From assembly GCA_003166055.1 (NCBI GenBank), contig PMWR01000002.1, forward strand, positions 1 to 7,999: a stretch of DNA of 7,999 nt, written 5' to 3'. A program made the position numbers and the translations under genes. Positions 1 through 7,999 of this stretch are shown one piece after another (position 1 is the stretch's first letter; each line of letters starts with the position of its first letter). The notes beneath the pieces are model-generated. The model was not told the origin of the DNA, ran no database searches, and saw only the letters and a list, made by a program, of their open reading frames with translations. This stretch comes from Acidobacteriaceae bacterium. Lineage in GTDB: Bacteria > Acidobacteriota > Terriglobia > Terriglobales > Acidobacteriaceae.

Positions 1-640
1 GCGTCAAGTAAATACCCCTAATGAGATTTGTACTTGATGCGTCAACTAGGACAATATCGCCCTTGGAAAAGATCGGGCGCACAAATTGATCCGAGATGCG
101 AATTGCGATCAATTTCCAGTCGGCTTGGATCAGGTGCGTTGGTAAGGAAAGATAATCCTCTATCTGCTCCGAAGAAGGCGGGAATCGCAATTGCCCTGGT
201 AACGGGGTCCGAACTATCGGAACAAGCACGGCGTCACTGGTTGACGATTTCAGCTTCTGCTCGATCCGCAGTTCTGAGTCCTCCACCATCCGCTTGAATT
301 CCGGAAACAAGTACTGGAAATCGTCGTGCTCGAACCCGGCCTTTGCCCAGAACCACATAGCAGTTGATGGAGCAACTTTCGCCGCCAACTTCGCCATTTG
401 CTTCCAGGCACGCGGAGCAGGGCTGCTCTTTCCGATCTCCCAGGCTGTGGCAGATATCCGCGTGACACCACAGGCATGTGCAAATTTCTCCTGAGTGAAG
501 TCAAGATCAAGTCGCAGTTTCCGGATTTTCGTGGATTCCTCACTTCGATTCGGTGCTTCGGATGATTTGTGCGCGGCTATTCGAGCTTTCCCGCGTGATC
601 TCCATCTGGGGTTAGTTACCCTCGTCTCGGCGGCTGACAT
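1..640 (-). CDS. XRE-family repressor with degenerate LexA/S24-like C-terminal domain (3'-truncated by window edge)
   Basis: Reading the minus strand from ATG at 640-638 gives 213 codons without a stop before the window edge, so the C-terminus is missing. A strong Shine-Dalgarno (GGAGG, complement of 646-650) lies 5 nt before this ATG and supports the start. Residues about 36-86 form an XRE helix-turn-helix (FTQEKFAHACGVTRISATAW, residues 48-67, then EIGKSSP). A tryptophan-rich stretch (MWFWAKAGF, 95-103) follows. Residues 177-212 resemble the start of the S24/LexA C-terminal fold: RPIFSKGDIVLVD (188-200) matches the family's P..xxGDxvlVD strand. The family motif G-D-S-M-x-P reads D-Q-F-V-R-P (184-189), so the catalytic serine position is Phe186. 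It is probably a DNA-binding regulator that cannot self-cleave. It is divergent from the hipBA array and less GC-rich than it. The HTH is well supported; the S24 assignment is moderate because the lysine region lies outside the window. Confidence 0.8.
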   Translation of the reverse strand, partial: MSAAETRVTNPRWRSRGKARIAAHKSSEAPNRSEESTKIRKLRLDLDFTQEKFAHACGVTRISATAWEIGKSSPAPRAWKQMAKLAAKVAPSTAMWFWAKAGFEHDDFQYLFPEFKRMVEDSELRIEQKLKSSTSDAVLVPIVRTPLPGQLRFPPSSEQIEDYLSLPTHLIQADWKLIAIRISDQFVRPIFSKGDIVLVDASSTNLIRGIYLT

Positions 641-682
641 AGAATCCTCCCTCTTAGTCGCATGACCTGAGAATTTACCGCT

Positions 683-695
683 CCCTTGCCAAGGG
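683..695. promoter_or_regulatory. Inverted repeat, possible operator for the minus-strand repressor
   Basis: CCCTTG at 683-688 and CAAGGG at 690-695 are perfect inverted arms around a single base. The element lies 43 bases upstream of the repressor start codon, in its probable leader or promoter. No T-tract follows on either strand, so it is not a typical terminator. Operator function is inferred from symmetry and position only. Confidence 0.35.
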
Positions 696-718
696 CAATG
701 ACTACCGCAACTACTATG

Positions 719-736
719 GTCAGAGTATACACTGAC
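719..736. promoter_or_regulatory. 18-bp dyad, candidate repressor operator
   Basis: GTCAGAGTATACACTGAC is palindromic except for one non-pairing base pair of positions: 724 and 731 are both A. The core is GTATAC. Length and symmetry suit a dimeric XRE/LexA-type repressor. It lies about 80 bases upstream of the minus-strand repressor start. On the minus strand a TTGTCA sequence (738-733), similar to a -35 box, overlaps the dyad, so binding there could block transcription of the repressor gene. The protein that binds is inferred. Confidence 0.45.
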
Positions 737-844
737 AAGAGTGGCCATGCTCATTTAACGCAGGCTACGGGAACACCTCCTCCCCGCAGTTCCAATGATG
801 GCTGAGGCGCCGCCTGCACCGAATATGCCCACTTTCAACTTGGC

Positions 845-858
845 ATAAGATATCTTAT
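845..858. promoter_or_regulatory. Perfect 14-bp palindrome, candidate HipB operator
   Basis: ATAAGATATCTTAT is a perfect palindrome located 63 bases before the hipB start, at the left end of the AT-rich promoter stretch. HipB proteins bind palindromic operators upstream of hipBA and autoregulate the operon, so this is the natural candidate site. The sequence does not match the E. coli hip operator, which is expected for a distant homologue. An outer inverted pair, GCATAA (843-848) and TTATGC (886-891), could be a further pair of half-sites. Confidence 0.45.
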
Positions 859-921
859 AGTTTACCCTATTGCTTATATAGTAATTTATGCTTTACTTTA
901 AAGGAAAGGGAGATTCCAACC
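854..921 (+). promoter_or_regulatory. AT-rich promoter and leader region of the hipBA array
   Basis: The stretch is AT-rich while the flanks are GC-rich, as expected for a promoter. TATAGT at 877-882 resembles a -10 box. The -35 at the usual distance (CTTATA, 854-859) is poor and overlaps the palindrome at 845-858, which would suit repression by HipB. A Shine-Dalgarno AAGGGAG (906-912) precedes the hipB ATG by 9 nt. The transcription start cannot be placed with certainty. Confidence 0.4.
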
Positions 922-1248
922 ATGCTGACGCTGCCGATCCCGGTTTCACGCGCTCTGCGCAAGCTTGGCCACGACATTAAGGATGCGCGGCGGCGGCGGC
1001 GCATCCCCATGGCGATCGCAGCGGAGCGGGCGTCCATAAGCAAGCCGACATTCATCAAAGTGGAGCGCGGCGATCCGACCGTTTCCATCGCCAGCTACGC
1101 CACTGTCCTTTATGTACTGGGCATGGCCGACCGGCTGGGCGACCTCGCGGCCCCAAAAAACGACCCGGTGGGCCTGCAGTTGGAAGAGGAAAACCTACCG
1201 CAGCGCATTCGCAGTGCGCGCAAACCGAAACGAGCGAAAGACGAGTGA
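922..1248 (+). CDS. hipB: HipB-like antitoxin, XRE-family transcriptional regulator
   Basis: This 108-residue protein is a single helix-turn-helix domain with a charged tail. An arginine-rich segment (residues 23-27) precedes the HTH; MAIAAERASISKPTFIKVERG (30-50) is the two-helix unit, and GDPTVSIASYATVLYVLGM (50-68) completes the fold. The C-terminus is charged and probably flexible (RIRSARKPKRAKDE). HipB proteins bind DNA as dimers, repress their own operon and neutralise the HipA kinase by direct contact. The start is supported by the Shine-Dalgarno AAGGGAG at 906-912. The stop TGA (1246-1248) shares its last base with the ATG of hipA, the usual coupled layout for antitoxin followed by toxin. 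The protein is longer than E. coli HipB (88 aa) mainly through its C-terminal tail. The assignment rests on the HTH plus the adjacent hipA. Confidence 0.88.
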   Translation: MLTLPIPVSRALRKLGHDIKDARRRRRIPMAIAAERASISKPTFIKVERGDPTVSIASYATVLYVLGMADRLGDLAAPKNDPVGLQLEEENLPQRIRSARKPKRAKDE

Positions 1249-2504
1249 TGGACAAAGAAACCTTTGTGTACGTAGACCTGGACGGCGTTCCCCACCTGAT
1301 GGGGCGGCTGTGGGCGCGCGTGCGCAAAAACAAGGAAAGCGCCACATTCGAATACGACGAGGGCTGGCTCAAACATCCCGCGCGTTTCTCGCTGGAGCCG
1401 GCGCTGCACCTCGGCCCCGGACCGTTCCACACGCCGGCCGACACGCCGATGTTCGGCGCCATCGGCGACTCGGCGCCGGACCGGTGGGGGCGGGCGCTGA
1501 TGCGCCGCATGGAACGGCGCCGCGCGGAACGCGAAGGGACGGCGCCGCGCACGCTTCAGGAGATCGACTTCCTGCTGCTGGTAGATGACGAGGCGCGACA
1601 AGGCGCGCTGCGCTTTGCTGAACATGAGGGCGGACCGTTCCTGCGCGAGGAGGGTGTCAAGCGCATCCCGCCGCTGGTCGAGCTGCCGAAACTTCTTTCC
1701 GCAGCGGAACACGTCATGGAGGAAAAGGACACCGAGGAAGATCTGCGCCTGCTGTTCGCGCCGGGTTCATCGCTCGGCGGCGCCCGTCCGAAGGCATCCG
1801 TCCTTGAAAAGGACGGCCATCTTGCTATCGCGAAATTCCCGCGCAAGGACGATGACATCAACACGGTGGTGTGGGAAGCGGTCGCTCTTGCACTAGCAGC
1901 AAAAGCTGGCATCGCCGTGCCGGAAAGCCGCATCGAGACCATTTCCGGGAAACCCGTGCTTCTGGTGCGGCGCTTCGACCGCGAAGGCAAGCAGCGAATT
2001 CCGTTTCTCTCCGCAATGAGCATGCTGGGGTCAAAAGACAACGAAGGCCGAAGCTATCTGGAAATTGTCGACGCGCTGCGCCAGCACGGGGCCGCGCCGA
2101 AAGCCGACATGGAGGCGCTGTGGCGACGGCTGGTGTTCAATATTCTGATTTCCAACACGGACGACCACCTGCGTAATCACGGTTTTCTCTACGCGGGGCA
2201 GGAGGGCTGGCGGCTCTCGCCGGCCTATGACCTCAACCCCGTGCCGACAGACATTAAGCCGCGCATCCTCAGCACGGCGATCAACGAGGATGACAACACG
2301 GCGTCCCTCGCACTGGCCCTGGAAGTTGCGGGGTATTTCGAACTGGACGACGCCGCGGCCCGCGAGATAGCAAAGCAGGTCGGCACGGCTGTCTCGAAAT
2401 GGCGCGATGAAGCCGCCCGGCACGGCCTGAGCAAAACCGAAATCAACCGTATGGCGTCATCCTTTGAGCACGAGGATCTGAGTCTGGCAAGCGGGAGGAA
2501 ATGA
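1248..2504 (+). CDS. hipA: HipA-like serine/threonine protein kinase toxin
   Basis: This 418-residue protein is close to the family's usual length (E. coli HipA, 440 aa). The N-terminal subdomain (about 1-125) includes GAIGDSAPDRWGRALM (70-85), typical of HipA. GSSLGGARPKAS (173-184) corresponds to the serine-bearing loop that is autophosphorylated in E. coli HipA, with Lys182 following. NTDDHLRNHGF (303-313) holds the catalytic Asp and Asn, and YDLNP (327-331) holds the metal-binding Asp. All key kinase residues appear intact. E. coli HipA phosphorylates glutamyl-tRNA synthetase and halts growth; the target here is unknown. ATG at 1248 overlaps the hipB stop by one base. GTG at 1245 would add one residue and is possible. 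No strong ribosome site is seen, so translation is probably coupled to hipB. The stop at 2502-2504 overlaps the next gene. Confidence 0.93.
   Translation: MDKETFVYVDLDGVPHLMGRLWARVRKNKESATFEYDEGWLKHPARFSLEPALHLGPGPFHTPADTPMFGAIGDSAPDRWGRALMRRMERRRAEREGTAPRTLQEIDFLLLVDDEARQGALRFAEHEGGPFLREEGVKRIPPLVELPKLLSAAEHVMEEKDTEEDLRLLFAPGSSLGGARPKASVLEKDGHLAIAKFPRKDDDINTVVWEAVALALAAKAGIAVPESRIETISGKPVLLVRRFDREGKQRIPFLSAMSMLGSKDNEGRSYLEIVDALRQHGAAPKADMEALWRRLVFNILISNTDDHLRNHGFLYAGQEGWRLSPAYDLNPVPTDIKPRILSTAINEDDNTASLALALEVAGYFELDDAAAREIAKQVGTAVSKWRDEAARHGLSKTEINRMASSFEHEDLSLASGRK
2494..2498 (+). promoter_or_regulatory. Ribosome binding site deciding the DUF6361 gene start
   Basis: GGAGG lies inside the last codons of hipA. 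It is 5 nt from ATG 2504-2506 but only 2 nt from the earlier ATG at 2501. The spacing favours 2504 as the start. The site lets ribosomes that finish hipA reinitiate directly. Confidence 0.6.
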
Positions 2505-3727
2505 TGTCCACGTTTGTCTGGCTGGATTATTCGGAGCGCGAGCGCCGGAAGATGCTCGATGTCGTCGATCTCTTCGGAGAACACGATACTCGGGATGAAC
2601 TCGGCATCGGCTCGGTGCGTGACGCATTCGCCGACATGCTCTTCCCCGGCACGAGCACGATCATGACCCGTGCGCGATATTTTCTTCTCGTCCCCTGGAC
2701 ATATCAGAGACTCGAGCGGTCGCGCGTCGGATCAGCAAAAATGGCGGCGAGCGCTCGGCAGGCGGAGCTGAACCTTGTTGAGCCCATAGGGCGCTCCGAT
2801 GACAACGACGGCAATATTGGCAAGGTGGCGAAAACAGCCCTGAAACGTCTTCCCAGCAGCGTTTACTGGCAGGGGCTGAATGTATGGGGAATTCGTTCCT
2901 TCAACGGCGCGCAAGTTCAATACCACCGTAGCCTCGATCAATATTATGTTCAACTTGCGCAGCAACGCGGACGGAAATCGGAGCGCGACGTTGAGCATGA
3001 CGATCTCATTTCCCCGAACTGGCATGCCGGGCTGGTCGCACCGCCGAAGGATTTCCCCAAGGAATGTTCCCTGAGCCTGACGCGCTGCGAAGCCGAATAT
3101 CTCGCTGAACGCATCCGCTTGAGCCCGGGCTGTTCCGGCTCATTGCTGGCCCAGCTTGTCACGCAGCGGCAACGCTACGATGATGTTCCGTTCGCGTGGC
3201 ATCATCCACACTGCGCAAAGCTGGCGCCGCGACTGCGTGAAATGCTCGATCACGCGCAGAATTTCTCCGAAGTCATGCACGGAGCGCCTTTGCTATACAA
3301 CCTGATGCTGGCCGAGCAGGCCCGTAGAAAAGAGAGCATAGCGAAATATCGCCGGACCTTCGGAGAGTGGGCGAAATCGATCTCCACGCGCTCCCGCGTT
3401 TTGGCGCAGTGGGACAGAAAACGTTTCTGGGAGATCGCCCGGTCCGTCAATCCGAGAATCACGGCACCCACTCACGAATTCATCAATAGTTGGTGGGATA
3501 TGGCCCTGGCAGGAAATGCAGAGAGGCTGTGCGACAGTCCCGCCGCGCGTCTGCTCATTCACGACCGTGAGCACAAACTGAAAAAGAATCTTGCGCGGCT
3601 GGACAATCCGGGCGCACAGGAACTGTGGACCGGCGATTCTGGGACATCGCAGCTGGAGTTCCGATGGTTCATATCGCAACGGCTGCTCGGCGATATTTTC
3701 GATGGTCTGGAGGCGGCCGATGCTTAG
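2504..3727 (+). CDS. DUF6361-like protein of unknown function
   Basis: This 407-residue soluble protein has no signal peptide or membrane segment. I assign it from memory to DUF6361, based on the N-terminus: STFVWLDYSERERRKMLD (2-19), TRDELGIGSVRDAFADMLFP (29-48) and TSTIMTRARYFLLVPWTY (50-67). The middle is rich in aromatic residues (YWQGLNVWGIRSFN, 121-134). The C-terminus (LEFRWFISQRLLGDIFDGL, 384-402) looks like a conserved closing segment. I see no nuclease, kinase or nucleotide-binding motif. It starts on an ATG that overlaps the hipA stop by one base, and its end overlaps the following PLD gene by 8 nt, so its product is probably made together with the PLD protein and helicase. A role as a sensor, scaffold or structural partner of these is only a guess. 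The alternative start at 2501 adds one residue. Confidence 0.75.
   Translation: MSTFVWLDYSERERRKMLDVVDLFGEHDTRDELGIGSVRDAFADMLFPGTSTIMTRARYFLLVPWTYQRLERSRVGSAKMAASARQAELNLVEPIGRSDDNDGNIGKVAKTALKRLPSSVYWQGLNVWGIRSFNGAQVQYHRSLDQYYVQLAQQRGRKSERDVEHDDLISPNWHAGLVAPPKDFPKECSLSLTRCEAEYLAERIRLSPGCSGSLLAQLVTQRQRYDDVPFAWHHPHCAKLAPRLREMLDHAQNFSEVMHGAPLLYNLMLAEQARRKESIAKYRRTFGEWAKSISTRSRVLAQWDRKRFWEIARSVNPRITAPTHEFINSWWDMALAGNAERLCDSPAARLLIHDREHKLKKNLARLDNPGAQELWTGDSGTSQLEFRWFISQRLLGDIFDGLEAADA
3709..3713 (+). promoter_or_regulatory. Ribosome binding site deciding the PLD gene start
   Basis: GGAGG is 6 nt before ATG 3720-3722. This supports starting the PLD gene at 3720 rather than at the much earlier in-frame ATG at 3591, which would overlap the upstream gene by more than 130 bases. 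Confidence 0.65.
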
Positions 3728-5555
3728 ACCGGACGAACGACAGCATCTGCTGGAGCTGCTCCGGCCGCCGGCGGGAAGCAAGCTCGATATTGCCGTCGGC
3801 ACGACTTTTTCACTCGATCTCCTCAGTGCGCTCATGCTCCCACTTTCGTTCGCGTTCTTTGACTGGGAGCATGAGGACGGTGAGCTGGTTGCCGATCCGC
3901 TGGCCTTGCTCGAAGCGCTGAGACGCTACGGCGACCGCTTCACGATCTTTTGCCAGAGCGGACAAATCCGGCTGCCGCGCAAGTATCAGCCTCTGGTCAC
4001 GTTCCTCGAACCATGCATCTACGACGTAAAGGCGCCAGACGCCGACGGCGTATTTCACCCGAAGGTGTGGGCGCTGCGCTTCATTGCGGAGGACGGCGCG
4101 ATTCGGTATCGCGTGCTCTGCCTGAGCCGGAATCTGACTTTTGACCGCTGCTGGGACACTGTCGTCGCACTCGATGGCGAGCTCACGGACCGGTCGAACG
4201 CCATCGCGGCCAATCATCCTCTCGCTGATCTCATAGCGGCGCTGCCCAGTCTTGCCCGCCTGCGGCTTCCTGGCCCACGCCGCCAAGGAATCGATAAGAT
4301 CGCCGATGAACTGCGTCGCGTGCGCTTCACCTGGCCCGAGGGCTTCGACGAAAAAGAATGCCGCTTCTGGGTCGCGGGACTAAACGGGAGGATTGCCGCC
4401 CCCTTCGGCGCGCGGCACGACAAGGCTTTGATCGTTTCGCCATTCATCTCGAATACGGTCGTGCGCGACTTCCTGGATCACACCGGCAAAACCCATTTGG
4501 TATCTCGTCCTGAGTGTCTGCAGGAGCTGCCCCAAGAGACATTGCGGGATTGCGACAGCGTCAGCTTCCTGGCGCCGGAGCTTACCGACGAATCCGATGA
4601 GGACGCACCACCCGCAAAAAGCGAGGTGCTGGAGGGTCTGCACGCGAAGCTTTTCGTGATCGACCGCGGCTGGAATGCCAGTGTATTCAGCGGCTCATTC
4701 AACGCGACCGCGCATGCATTGCAGCACAATGTCGAGTTCATGGTCGAACTCGTCGGCAGAAAGAGCCAATGCGGCGTGGACCAGTTTCTCCGGCAGGCGA
4801 AAGGCGAAACGAATTTTGCCGACCTGCTCAAGCCCTACGACGTGGATGCGCCGCCGGTACCGGCCGATGCCACGGCGCAGCAGCTCGATGATCTGCTCCA
4901 GACGGTGAAGCGGGCGATAGACGCGGCGGGGCCCCGGCTGATTGTCACGCCGGCGGACGAGGCGGACCTGTTCGAACTCCGGCTTCAGTGGGGACGCGCG
5001 CCGCATTGGCCGAAGGCGAATGTCAAGATGAGCGCGTGGCCGATAACACAGCAAGCTGAGGTGGGTCAGGCCCCGGACATGTCCGTGGTGTTTCCGCGGC
5101 TGTCGTTTCGCGGGCTGACGCCTCTCATCGCCTTTTCCGTCACCGCAAGGATAGGCGATAAGGAGCGCACGGCCGTCTTCGTCATGAATCTTCCCATGCA
5201 AGGGGCTCCTGTGGACCGGCAGGATCGCGTTGTGCGCTCTCTCATCGAGAACCGTGATCAGCTGCTCCGTTACATCCTCTTTCTTCTTGCCGGCGGCGAC
5301 GAAGGAGCCGCCTCTTCGGGTGAACTGCGCAGATTGCTTGAATCTCCGGGGAAAGGCGAGCGCGGCGCGCACAATCCCTATTTATTGGAAACCATGCTGC
5401 GCGCGCTTCACCGTAGTCCGGCGCAACTCGAACGTGTTTCGTCTCTGCTGGACGTTCTCCGTAAGCAGGAGGGGAGCTCCGAGCTGCTCAGCGAGGATTT
5501 TCAGAAAATATGGGAGCCCATTTGGGAAGCCACCCGGCAGGAGACGCCGAAATGA
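3720..5555 (+). CDS. Phospholipase D (HKD) superfamily protein, putative nuclease
   Basis: This 611-residue cytosolic protein has two PLD-type half-sites. The second is canonical: HAKLFVID (308-315) fits HxKx4D and is followed by SGSFNAT (324-330). The first is partial: FHPKVWALR (112-120) keeps H113 and K115, but the Asp position is Arg120. SRNLTFDR (136-143) after it resembles the G/S-x-N element. PLD-fold proteins use paired histidines to cleave phosphodiesters; in defence loci they are usually nucleases (for example DrmC of DISARM) rather than lipases. Residues about 400-500 look beta-rich and about 505-605 helical; neither part is recognised. The start at 3720 overlaps the upstream stop by 8 nt and has a well-spaced GGAGG. 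The end overlaps the helicase gene as ATGA. Substrate unknown; nuclease activity is inferred from the fold and context. Confidence 0.85.
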   Translation: MLRPDERQHLLELLRPPAGSKLDIAVGTTFSLDLLSALMLPLSFAFFDWEHEDGELVADPLALLEALRRYGDRFTIFCQSGQIRLPRKYQPLVTFLEPCIYDVKAPDADGVFHPKVWALRFIAEDGAIRYRVLCLSRNLTFDRCWDTVVALDGELTDRSNAIAANHPLADLIAALPSLARLRLPGPRRQGIDKIADELRRVRFTWPEGFDEKECRFWVAGLNGRIAAPFGARHDKALIVSPFISNTVVRDFLDHTGKTHLVSRPECLQELPQETLRDCDSVSFLAPELTDESDEDAPPAKSEVLEGLHAKLFVIDRGWNASVFSGSFNATAHALQHNVEFMVELVGRKSQCGVDQFLRQAKGETNFADLLKPYDVDAPPVPADATAQQLDDLLQTVKRAIDAAGPRLIVTPADEADLFELRLQWGRAPHWPKANVKMSAWPITQQAEVGQAPDMSVVFPRLSFRGLTPLIAFSVTARIGDKERTAVFVMNLPMQGAPVDRQDRVVRSLIENRDQLLRYILFLLAGGDEGAASSGELRRLLESPGKGERGAHNPYLLETMLRALHRSPAQLERVSSLLDVLRKQEGSSELLSEDFQKIWEPIWEATRQETPK

Positions 5556-7999
5556 TCCCGCGCCCCGACACCAGATCCGCTCTCAAAGGGCTGAAGGATT
5601 TTCAGCGCAACACCGTGGACTATGTCTTTCAGCGGTTCCACGGCGCGGACCCGACGCGGCGTTTTCTTGTCGCGGACGAAGTTGGATTGGGCAAGACTCT
5701 CGTGGCGCGCGGCGTGATCGCACAAACGATCGATCATCTTTGGGACGAACTTACGCGCGACGAGACGCGCCGGATCGATGTGATCTACATCTGTTCGAAC
5801 GCGGACATCGCCCGCCAAAACATAGACCGGATCAAAATTCCTGGCTGCGATGAAGCGACGCAGGCAACGCGCCTGACCTTGCTGCCGCTGCAAATGCAGG
5901 ATTTCCGCCGCATCAACTTTGTCGCTCTCACTCCGGGCACGTCTTTCGAGCAAACCGGCGGCGGCGGGCGCATCGATGAGCGGGTCCTGCTTTACCGGCT
6001 GCTGGATCGGGCATGGGGAATCAAAGGATCGCGCGCTTCGCTCTATGTGATGAGAGACTATGCCGGCGTGGTTCCCTTCGAGCGGGCACTTGAGGCGTTT
6101 GATTTCGGGAAACTCAATGAGCAGATTGCGGATCGGTTTGTTTCCGCCCTCGCAAAACAGGTGCAGGAAGAGATAGCCGCCGGCAAACTGGATTTGCGCA
6201 CGCGCTTCGAAGAGCTGCGCGGCATATTTTCGCGCAGCAACTCCGTTCCGCCGCACGGCGCGACCAAGCGGCGGACGCGGTGGATCGGAGAGTTGAGGCG
6301 GCTGCTCGCGCAGGTGTGCATCGCAACGCTTAAGCCGGATTTGATCATCCTGGACGAATTTCAGCGCTTCAAGCACCTGCTTGATGAAGATTCGGACGCG
6401 GGAGACCTGGCCCGGGGCCTGTTTGATTCAGAGGCGGGGGAAGGTGCTCGCGTCCTTCTGCTCTCAGCCACGCCGTATCGCGGCCTGAGTCTTTATCACG
6501 AGGCCGATGACGATCATTACGGCGACTTTCTCGCGTTGCTGCGTTTTCTGGAAAACAGCGACGCGGCGGGCTGCAAGGAGATACTGGCGGAGTATCGCGC
6601 CGCCCTGCCAGCCGTGATGACGCCGGACGGGCTCGCTCGGCTGAGAACTGCGAAAACGGCGCTTCAGCAGCGCCTGTGCCGAGTGATGGCGCGTACGGAA
6701 CGTCTCGCCTCGTCAAAAGCCCGGGGCGGCATGCTTCTCGATGCGCCGCCAGCCGACGCCTCGCTTCATGCCGTCGATGTCCGCGCGTATCTGGGCGCGC
6801 AGAGCGTCGGCGACGCGGTGGAGCAAGGGGACGTTGTCGAATATTGGAAGTCGGCGCCCTACTTGTTCAACTTCATGGATAACTATGCCCTGAAGAAAGC
6901 ATTCAGCGACGCACCGGAAAAGGACAAAATGGTGCGCCTTGTAAGGCAGTTTCCGGAGACATTTCTCGATTTTGACCGCGCGCGCGCCTATAAGCCGATC
7001 GAGCCCGCGAACCCGCGTCTGCGCGAATTGCTTTCAGAGACCGTTGACCGCGGCATGTGGCGTTTGCTCTGGATGCCGCCGGCCCTTGGCTATTACGCCC
7101 TCGAAGGACCTTTCGCCGCTCCGGAATTGCACGGCGTGACAAAGCGGCTGGTCTTCTCCGCGTGGCACATGGTTCCGCGCGCCGTCGCTTCCCTTCTTTC
7201 ATATGAGGCGGAGCGCCGCATGATGCGGGCGGCCAACCCGAGCGGGCTAACGACGCAAGACGATTGGAAAAAGCAGCGCGGCCTTTTGCGCTTCGGACTA
7301 TCAGATGACCGCCGGACAGGCCTGCCGCTGCTTTTGCTCGTTTATCCCTGTCTCACATTCGGCCGCGACTGCGACCCGCGTGCGCTGGCGCGAAGCGCCA
7401 GTCTGACGGCGGCAGAGGTGCGCGCGCAGTTCGTTACCCATATTAAAACCGCGCTCGAGAAGCTGGAGATCGCGCAGGAGGCAACTACCGGCACAGACGA
7501 TCGCTGGTACTGGCTCGCGCCGATGCTCCTCGATTTTGCGAAGTTTCCCGACGCGGCGCGGGAATGGTGGGACCGCACGGATCTGGCGCAGATATGGGCC
7601 GGCGCAGAAATGGGCGAGGAAGATGCAGGTTGGTCGAGCCATGTCGAGCACGCGAAGAAGACGCTCGATTCCATTCGCAACGGTAAAGAGCGTCTGGGCA
7701 CCCCGCCGGACGATCTTGCAAGCGTCCTGGCCCTCGCGGCCTCCGGCGCTCCAGCGACGGCTGCGATGCGCGCCTATGCGCGTGCGAGCCGTACAGAACC
7801 CGCGACGTGCCTGCCTCTGCGCGTTGTCGCGGCGCGCTCCGGGAGAGCCTTTCTCACACTTTTCAATCATGCGGAAGTCATCGAAGCCGTCAGGATGGAG
7901 TTTTCGGGCGAACCTTACTGGGAGCGCGTCCTGGAATATGCTCATGCGGGCGGGCTCCAGGCGGTGCTGGATGAATACACCCATGTGCTCCGCGAATCT
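5552..7999 (+). CDS. Superfamily 2 (SNF2/DEAD-like) helicase or translocase, C-terminus beyond window
   Basis: The frame is open for 816 codons to the last base, so the protein continues past the window. The first RecA domain is clear: LKDFQRNTVDYVFQRF (14-29) resembles the adenine-contacting segment, ADEVGLGKT (41-49) is the Walker A motif, VIYICSN (77-83) is motif Ia, LDEFQ (267-271) is a DExx-type Walker B and LLSATPYR (303-310) is motif III. A long insertion (about 133-255) separates Ia from II. KRLVFSAWHMVPRAV (531-545) resembles the first strand of the second RecA domain. The arginine-finger motif VI was not found and may lie downstream. Such proteins use ATP to move on or remodel nucleic acid. 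The start ATG (5552-5554) overlaps the PLD stop as ATGA, with AGGAG (5539-5543) 8 nt upstream. Its partner is probably the PLD protein. The exact subfamily is not recognised. Confidence 0.88.
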   Translation, partial: MIPRPDTRSALKGLKDFQRNTVDYVFQRFHGADPTRRFLVADEVGLGKTLVARGVIAQTIDHLWDELTRDETRRIDVIYICSNADIARQNIDRIKIPGCDEATQATRLTLLPLQMQDFRRINFVALTPGTSFEQTGGGGRIDERVLLYRLLDRAWGIKGSRASLYVMRDYAGVVPFERALEAFDFGKLNEQIADRFVSALAKQVQEEIAAGKLDLRTRFEELRGIFSRSNSVPPHGATKRRTRWIGELRRLLAQVCIATLKPDLIILDEFQRFKHLLDEDSDAGDLARGLFDSEAGEGARVLLLSATPYRGLSLYHEADDDHYGDFLALLRFLENSDAAGCKEILAEYRAALPAVMTPDGLARLRTAKTALQQRLCRVMARTERLASSKARGGMLLDAPPADASLHAVDVRAYLGAQSVGDAVEQGDVVEYWKSAPYLFNFMDNYALKKAFSDAPEKDKMVRLVRQFPETFLDFDRARAYKPIEPANPRLRELLSETVDRGMWRLLWMPPALGYYALEGPFAAPELHGVTKRLVFSAWHMVPRAVASLLSYEAERRMMRAANPSGLTTQDDWKKQRGLLRFGLSDDRRTGLPLLLLVYPCLTFGRDCDPRALARSASLTAAEVRAQFVTHIKTALEKLEIAQEATTGTDDRWYWLAPMLLDFAKFPDAAREWWDRTDLAQIWAGAEMGEEDAGWSSHVEHAKKTLDSIRNGKERLGTPPDDLASVLALAASGAPATAAMRAYARASRTEPATCLPLRVVAARSGRAFLTLFNHAEVIEAVRMEFSGEPYWERVLEYAHAGGLQAVLDEYTHVLRES

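Follow-up and report, generated by a model that had tools for sequence, protein, structure and literature searches.

A hipBA toxin-antitoxin pair overlapping the zacABC genes of an Acidobacteriaceae bacterium: known parts in a new arrangement that possibly recurs

Organization of the locus

The window, i.e., the whole stretch of 7,999 nt analyzed here, contains five plus-strand genes that follow one another without a gap from position 922 to the window end: hipB, hipA, zacA (encoding a DUF6361 protein), zacB (a PLD-superfamily protein) and zacC (a helicase) (Table 1). With ATG starts chosen, successive genes overlap by 1 nt (hipB/hipA), 1 nt (hipA/zacA), 8 nt (zacA/zacB) and 4 nt (zacB/zacC), exactly as claimed in a preliminary description of this DNA, and all five reading frames are present. 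The first two junctions both read TGATG, and each overlap becomes 4 nt if the alternative start of the downstream gene is used (GTG 1245 for hipA, ATG 2501 for zacA); the zacB/zacC junction reads ATGA. The window showed a single sigma-70-like site, which lies within zacA, against 2.0 expected by chance. The named near relatives of ZacA and HipA belong largely to Acidobacteriota. Facing the array is a divergent HTH gene, the product of which has a C-terminal part that looks S24/LexA-like by eye and lacks the usual serine.

Table 1. Features of the hipBA-zacABC locus (window coordinates).
Feature	Position	Strand	Basis or remark
Divergent HTH gene facing the array, cut by the window start	2-754	-	HTH_3 domain
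Predicted hipBA-type promoter/operator region	840..905	+	alignment to L145; palindrome
hipB, HTH antitoxin, 108 aa (P0001)	922..1248	+	match to PDB HipB 9u9g
hipA, HipA-family kinase toxin, 418 aa (P0002)	1248..2504	+	HipA_C; GTG 1245 is an alternative start
Likely zacA ribosome-binding site GGGAGGAA, within the last hipA codons	2493..2500	+	by eye
zacA, DUF6361 protein, 407 aa (P0003)	2504..3727	+	PADLOC ZacA, Pfam DUF6361; ATG 2501 is an alternative start
zacB, PLD-superfamily protein, 611 aa (P0004)	3720..5555	+	PADLOC ZacB
zacC, helicase, 816 aa visible (P0005), cut by the window end	5552..7999	+	PADLOC ZacC

The hipBA pair and the region before it

HipA carries the kinase domain expected of a hipBA toxin (HipA_C, 176.5 bits against a Pfam cut-off of 30.5), and its N-terminal Couple_hipA match falls just below the threshold (21.4 bits, cut-off 22.5). 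Residues 209-329 align with HipT(Lp) of Legionella (8ezr), including motifs that we take to be the catalytic ones. The assignment of hipB as the HTH antitoxin gene follows from its position directly 5' of hipA and from the match of its product to a HipB of known structure (9u9g, E=3.5e-11); with the NCBIfam couple_hipB model the protein scores 21.6 bits, under the cut-off of 71.65, and the Pfam scan of HipB returned no family. An HTH gene placed 5' of the HipA kinase gene is shared with the type II hipBA modules described by Gerdes et al. (2021; PMC8262856), and the 1-nt hipB/hipA overlap of the window is ordinary, being found in 15 of 20 extended loci of related hipBA pairs. The available part of that article classes ten hipBA organizations by antitoxin partner and there makes no mention of a trio such as the one found here.

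Several features upstream of hipB resemble a hipBA control region. A 14-base palindrome, ATAAGATATCTTAT, occupies positions 845-858, and a TTGGCA-17 nt-TACCCT pair, read by eye rather than scored by a tool, lies at 840-868. When this region was compared with the corresponding region of the 20 loci, the solitary hipBA of L145 gave a local alignment score of 36 (best of 200 shuffles, 24), the only clear similarity of the set (1/20); L159 was slightly over its shuffles (25 vs 22), and the other four loci with listed scores did not rise above theirs. According to Gerdes et al. (2021; PMC8262856), HipB is an autoregulator in every hipBA-type case investigated.

What sets the window apart is the end of the kinase gene, which overlaps the downstream zacA. 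Across the 20 extended hipBA loci, no ORF of at least 80 aa overlaps the hipA end, and such an ORF starts within 10 nt of it in only two (L161 and L162). Coupling after hipA is therefore unusual for this HipA family, and the earlier statement that hipBA normally stands alone is borne out in so far as these relatives mostly lack a coupled downstream gene. The family itself is common, some match being present in 131 of the 399 genomes searched within the class, and ZacA was absent from the flanks of the 30 HipA loci listed. The genomes of the five nearest named zac loci (L007-L011) lack a HipA of the window type, two of the five giving weak matches. As a separate observation, a 175-aa HipB relative encoded on a 90-kb contig (P0247) carries an additional HTH family (PF13413) and is possibly a fused antitoxin.

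The zac trio

The three genes downstream of hipA do not form a new system, being catalogued already as Zac in PADLOC. Their products match the ZacA, ZacB and ZacC models of PADLOC-DB 2.0.0 (PDLC03828, PDLC03829 and PDLC03830) at 439, 584 and 766 bits, in order and nearly at full length, with the ZacC match spanning profile positions 5-775 of 1019 because the window end cuts the gene. ZacA additionally matches Pfam DUF6361 at 219 bits (cut-off 25), whereas PLDc_2 (24.6 bits, cut-off 27) and DEAD (23.4 bits, cut-off 26) both remain slightly under their Pfam cut-offs. The predicted structure of ZacA is all-helical (pLDDT 86.2) and gave no clear match in a fold comparison. In ZacB, both HxK motifs are retained across 49 homologues: H113, K115, N138, K310, S326 and N328 are invariant, and H308 is present in at least 90%. 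Structurally, the ZacB model is similar to PLD3 and TDP1 (best E 8.5e-9), at a TM-score of about 0.3 by query length. A Helicase_C domain was found in all three complete ZacC homologues scanned. Two further assignments were considered and discarded, namely ZacB as the DISARM protein DrmC (20.1 bits, NCBIfam cut-off 133) and the visible part of ZacC as the Dpd protein DpdE (39 bits, NCBIfam cut-off 500). Zac would be an anti-phage defense going by its PADLOC naming; a literature search found no paper on DUF6361, on ZacABC or on Zac as phage defense.

A conserved trio behind a variable gene

The surroundings of zac were read in 86 further loci, 6 taken from 45 plasmid records and 80 from genome contigs, where they rank best among 324 confirmed places. 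zacB follows zacA in all 83 loci with enough contig, and zacC is present in 71 of the 72 testable ones, the exception being L023, where the zacB match is also short. In L037, about 1.7 kb (12944-14655) separates the zacB and zacC matches. HipA adjoins zacA in none of the 86 loci, in 73 of which the upstream sequence extends to 1.3 kb or more; the window thus differs from the ZacABC loci read in that hipBA precedes and overlaps zacA. A distant HipA homologue lies downstream of zacA at 5.7 kb in L051 and at 7.5 kb in L065. ZacA matches were additionally found in 12 of 399, 1 of 95, 10 of 257 and 6 of 397 genomes of four overlapping survey sets. The 25 loci recovered in these surveys comprise 21 new places (L007 and L008 turn up again among them, and in each of two pairs both loci cover one place), and no HipA or HipB match was found in them, many of their flanks being only 1.5 kb long or stopping at a contig end. 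Similarly, in a scan of the upstream neighbors of 62 loci (the window and 61 others, six more having been dropped because they showed small ORFs only), HipA_C occurred once, in the window itself. Since HipA adjoins zacA in none of the 86 loci, is absent from the survey loci and appears in 1 of 62 scanned neighborhoods, the trio stands without hipBA. Among the distant taxa covered, the hipA-trio order was not encountered, an outcome that the preliminary description had itself named as counting against its proposal.

The position before zacA is occupied by diverse genes. Among the 25 of 83 upstream families listed, the UvrD helicase occurs 7 times, Mrr 3 times, an integrase twice and BrxL once. 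An HTH protein precedes zacA in L008, a family-less protein following an SNF2 helicase in L009, a GMT-wHTH protein in L010 and DUF2130 in L011. Where a same-strand upstream ORF lies within 400 nt, its gap to zacA is at most 60 nt in 26 of 67 loci, and Zac therefore frequently ends a gene chain. On the two rhizobial plasmids among L003, L004 and L005, a large gene annotated as a UvrD/REP helicase precedes zacA, and in L004 a PD-(D/E)XK nuclease gene comes before that helicase gene; the unannotated L005 (Niveispirillum) has ORFs of similar size at the same positions. On the other side of the trio, L008 encodes 3' of zacC (16819-20007) a protein of 1063 aa in which an ATPase region is combined with a PRTase-CE domain.

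The closest DNA relative among the best 80 of the 324 places is L007, the ZacA of which is 84% identical to that of the window. Like the window, it has a toxin-type gene directly before zacA, but hipBA is replaced by a Fic gene (8421-9986; PF02661, 48 bits) that ends 14 nt before zacA, where the window genes overlap. In G261 (L095/L102), from another order, the broken zacA is preceded by a Fic fragment of 86% identity. Additionally, in L140 and L141, 142 nt separate a different Fic-like gene, its motif recognized by eye, from the distant DUF6361 gene (34% identical) that follows it. Fic proteins of the L007 type mostly occur without Zac: of 20 listed Fic loci, a set that does not take in G261, ZacA was found at L164 alone, which is L007 again.

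Indirect signs of recurrence

The 120 best ZacA, HipA and HipB proteins were listed, each with its longest contig, and contig sizes were compared for exact equality. One size, 39985 bases, is common to the ZacA, HipA and HipB lists (P0012/P0129/P0302); 144231 (P0026/P0235) and 4507 bases (P0027/P0201) are shared by ZacA and HipA, and 171342 bases (P0014/P0282) by ZacA and HipB. Above 4,400 bases, a cut of our own choosing, the lists give 5 matches where shifted lengths would lead one to expect 0.27, and over all contig sizes 8 against 1.6. Four other contigs thus indirectly appear, by equal size, to carry ZacA together with HipA or HipB, equal size not being adjacency. The 4507-base contig, if its link is real, leaves little space between hipA and zacA.

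The linked HipA proteins also share a C-terminal tail. Those of the window, P0129, P0201 and P0235 end in LASG or LANG followed by two residues, and in the window the codons of this tail (LASGRK) are those that hold the purine-rich GGGAGGAA just 5' of the zacA start. A slightly wider form of the pattern is found in 24 of 140 HipAs and in none of 20 genome loci; with the window excluded, 3 of 3 linked HipAs carry it (chance 0.004, for a pattern picked after viewing the tails). In a quick HipA tree, the starred branches require a separate place for each of the four linked HipAs. In the ZacA tree, four of the five linked rows (P0027 excepted) fall with the Fic-associated L007 into one 34-row subclade (support 94); in a list drawn by likeness to the window, the linked label was no more clustered than in shuffled data (as low in 297 of 500). 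Together, these sequence comparisons suggest, indirectly, that hipBA may have been captured or exchanged repeatedly within one Zac lineage.

A probable captured cassette before zacABC

The trio is conserved without hipBA and hipBA occurs without zac, from which it follows that two modules have been joined in the window. We consider it fairly probable that a zacABC module here lies under a captured hipBA cassette, with which it is probably cotranscribed and by which it is probably HipB-regulated, hipBA being one recurrent occupant of an exchangeable position before zacA. The position upstream of zacABC would have gone to an entire hipBA cassette that brought along its promoter, a single transcript would begin upstream of hipB, and HipB, together with HipA, would repress this transcript and thereby determine how much Zac protein is made. 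Foreign DNA could be the target of ZacB and ZacC, partnered by ZacA, and HipA would be held neutral by HipB and might, when HipB is disturbed, provide a second line or, as an addiction device, penalize loss of the locus. Weighing against this reading are the clear promoter similarity in just 1 of the 20 loci, the lack of clustering of the linked rows on the ZacA tree and the lack of a HipA of this type in the genomes of L007-L011. The composite unit proposed earlier is retained as regards the unbroken chain behind a hipBA-type promoter region and abandoned as regards the trio, which needs no hipBA; HipA might serve as a growth-arrest arm triggered by the trio, or only for addiction.

Alternatively, hipBA may have landed before zacABC by chance in a defense-rich region, with the overlaps just lending a promoter and the toxin only maintaining itself. 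This account, which we regard as possible if rather doubtful, agrees with the absence of HipA next to zacA in the 86 loci and of both HipA and HipB in the 25 survey loci, as well as with the wide occurrence of the window HipBA family without zac, in the genomes and in the listed HipA flanks alike. On the other hand, the links on four other contigs, together with the tail common to HipAs from four positions of the tree, would indicate that more than one event took place, and a single chance insertion fits them poorly. The earlier proposal of a hipBA-trio pairing is kept in a narrower form: hipBA-zacA may recur in close relatives as judged, indirectly, by equal contig size and the shared tail, but in none of the 86 loci are the two adjacent. 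A five-gene system in which Zac functions only with HipBA is very improbable. Although the tight overlaps of the window and the tail of the linked HipAs would suit it, the trio has no adjacent HipA in any of the 86 loci, no coupled zac follows any of the 20 extended hipBA pairs, and Fic takes the same position in L007.

The captured-cassette reading may be extended, tentatively and at a lower degree of belief, to a toxin slot in ZacABC: in one Zac subclade, toxins that modify proteins (Fic enzymes as well as HipA kinases from several lineages) would repeatedly fill the position directly before zacA, hipBA would bring its own autoregulated promoter, and an exchangeable growth-arrest effector would arm a nuclease-helicase defense. 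Where TA modules are associated with CRISPR-Cas or with restriction systems, a toxin pair likewise lies beside a nuclease-based defense; there the functional link has reportedly been studied experimentally, whereas the window is known by its layout alone. The locus thus combines known parts in a new arrangement that possibly recurs. If the pairing is functional, it would illustrate clearly how a toxin of the persistence type serves a nuclease-type defense, and the rule of exchangeable effectors would be directly testable. If it is not, the locus would still show a mobile toxin pair lending its promoter to an adjoining defense operon.
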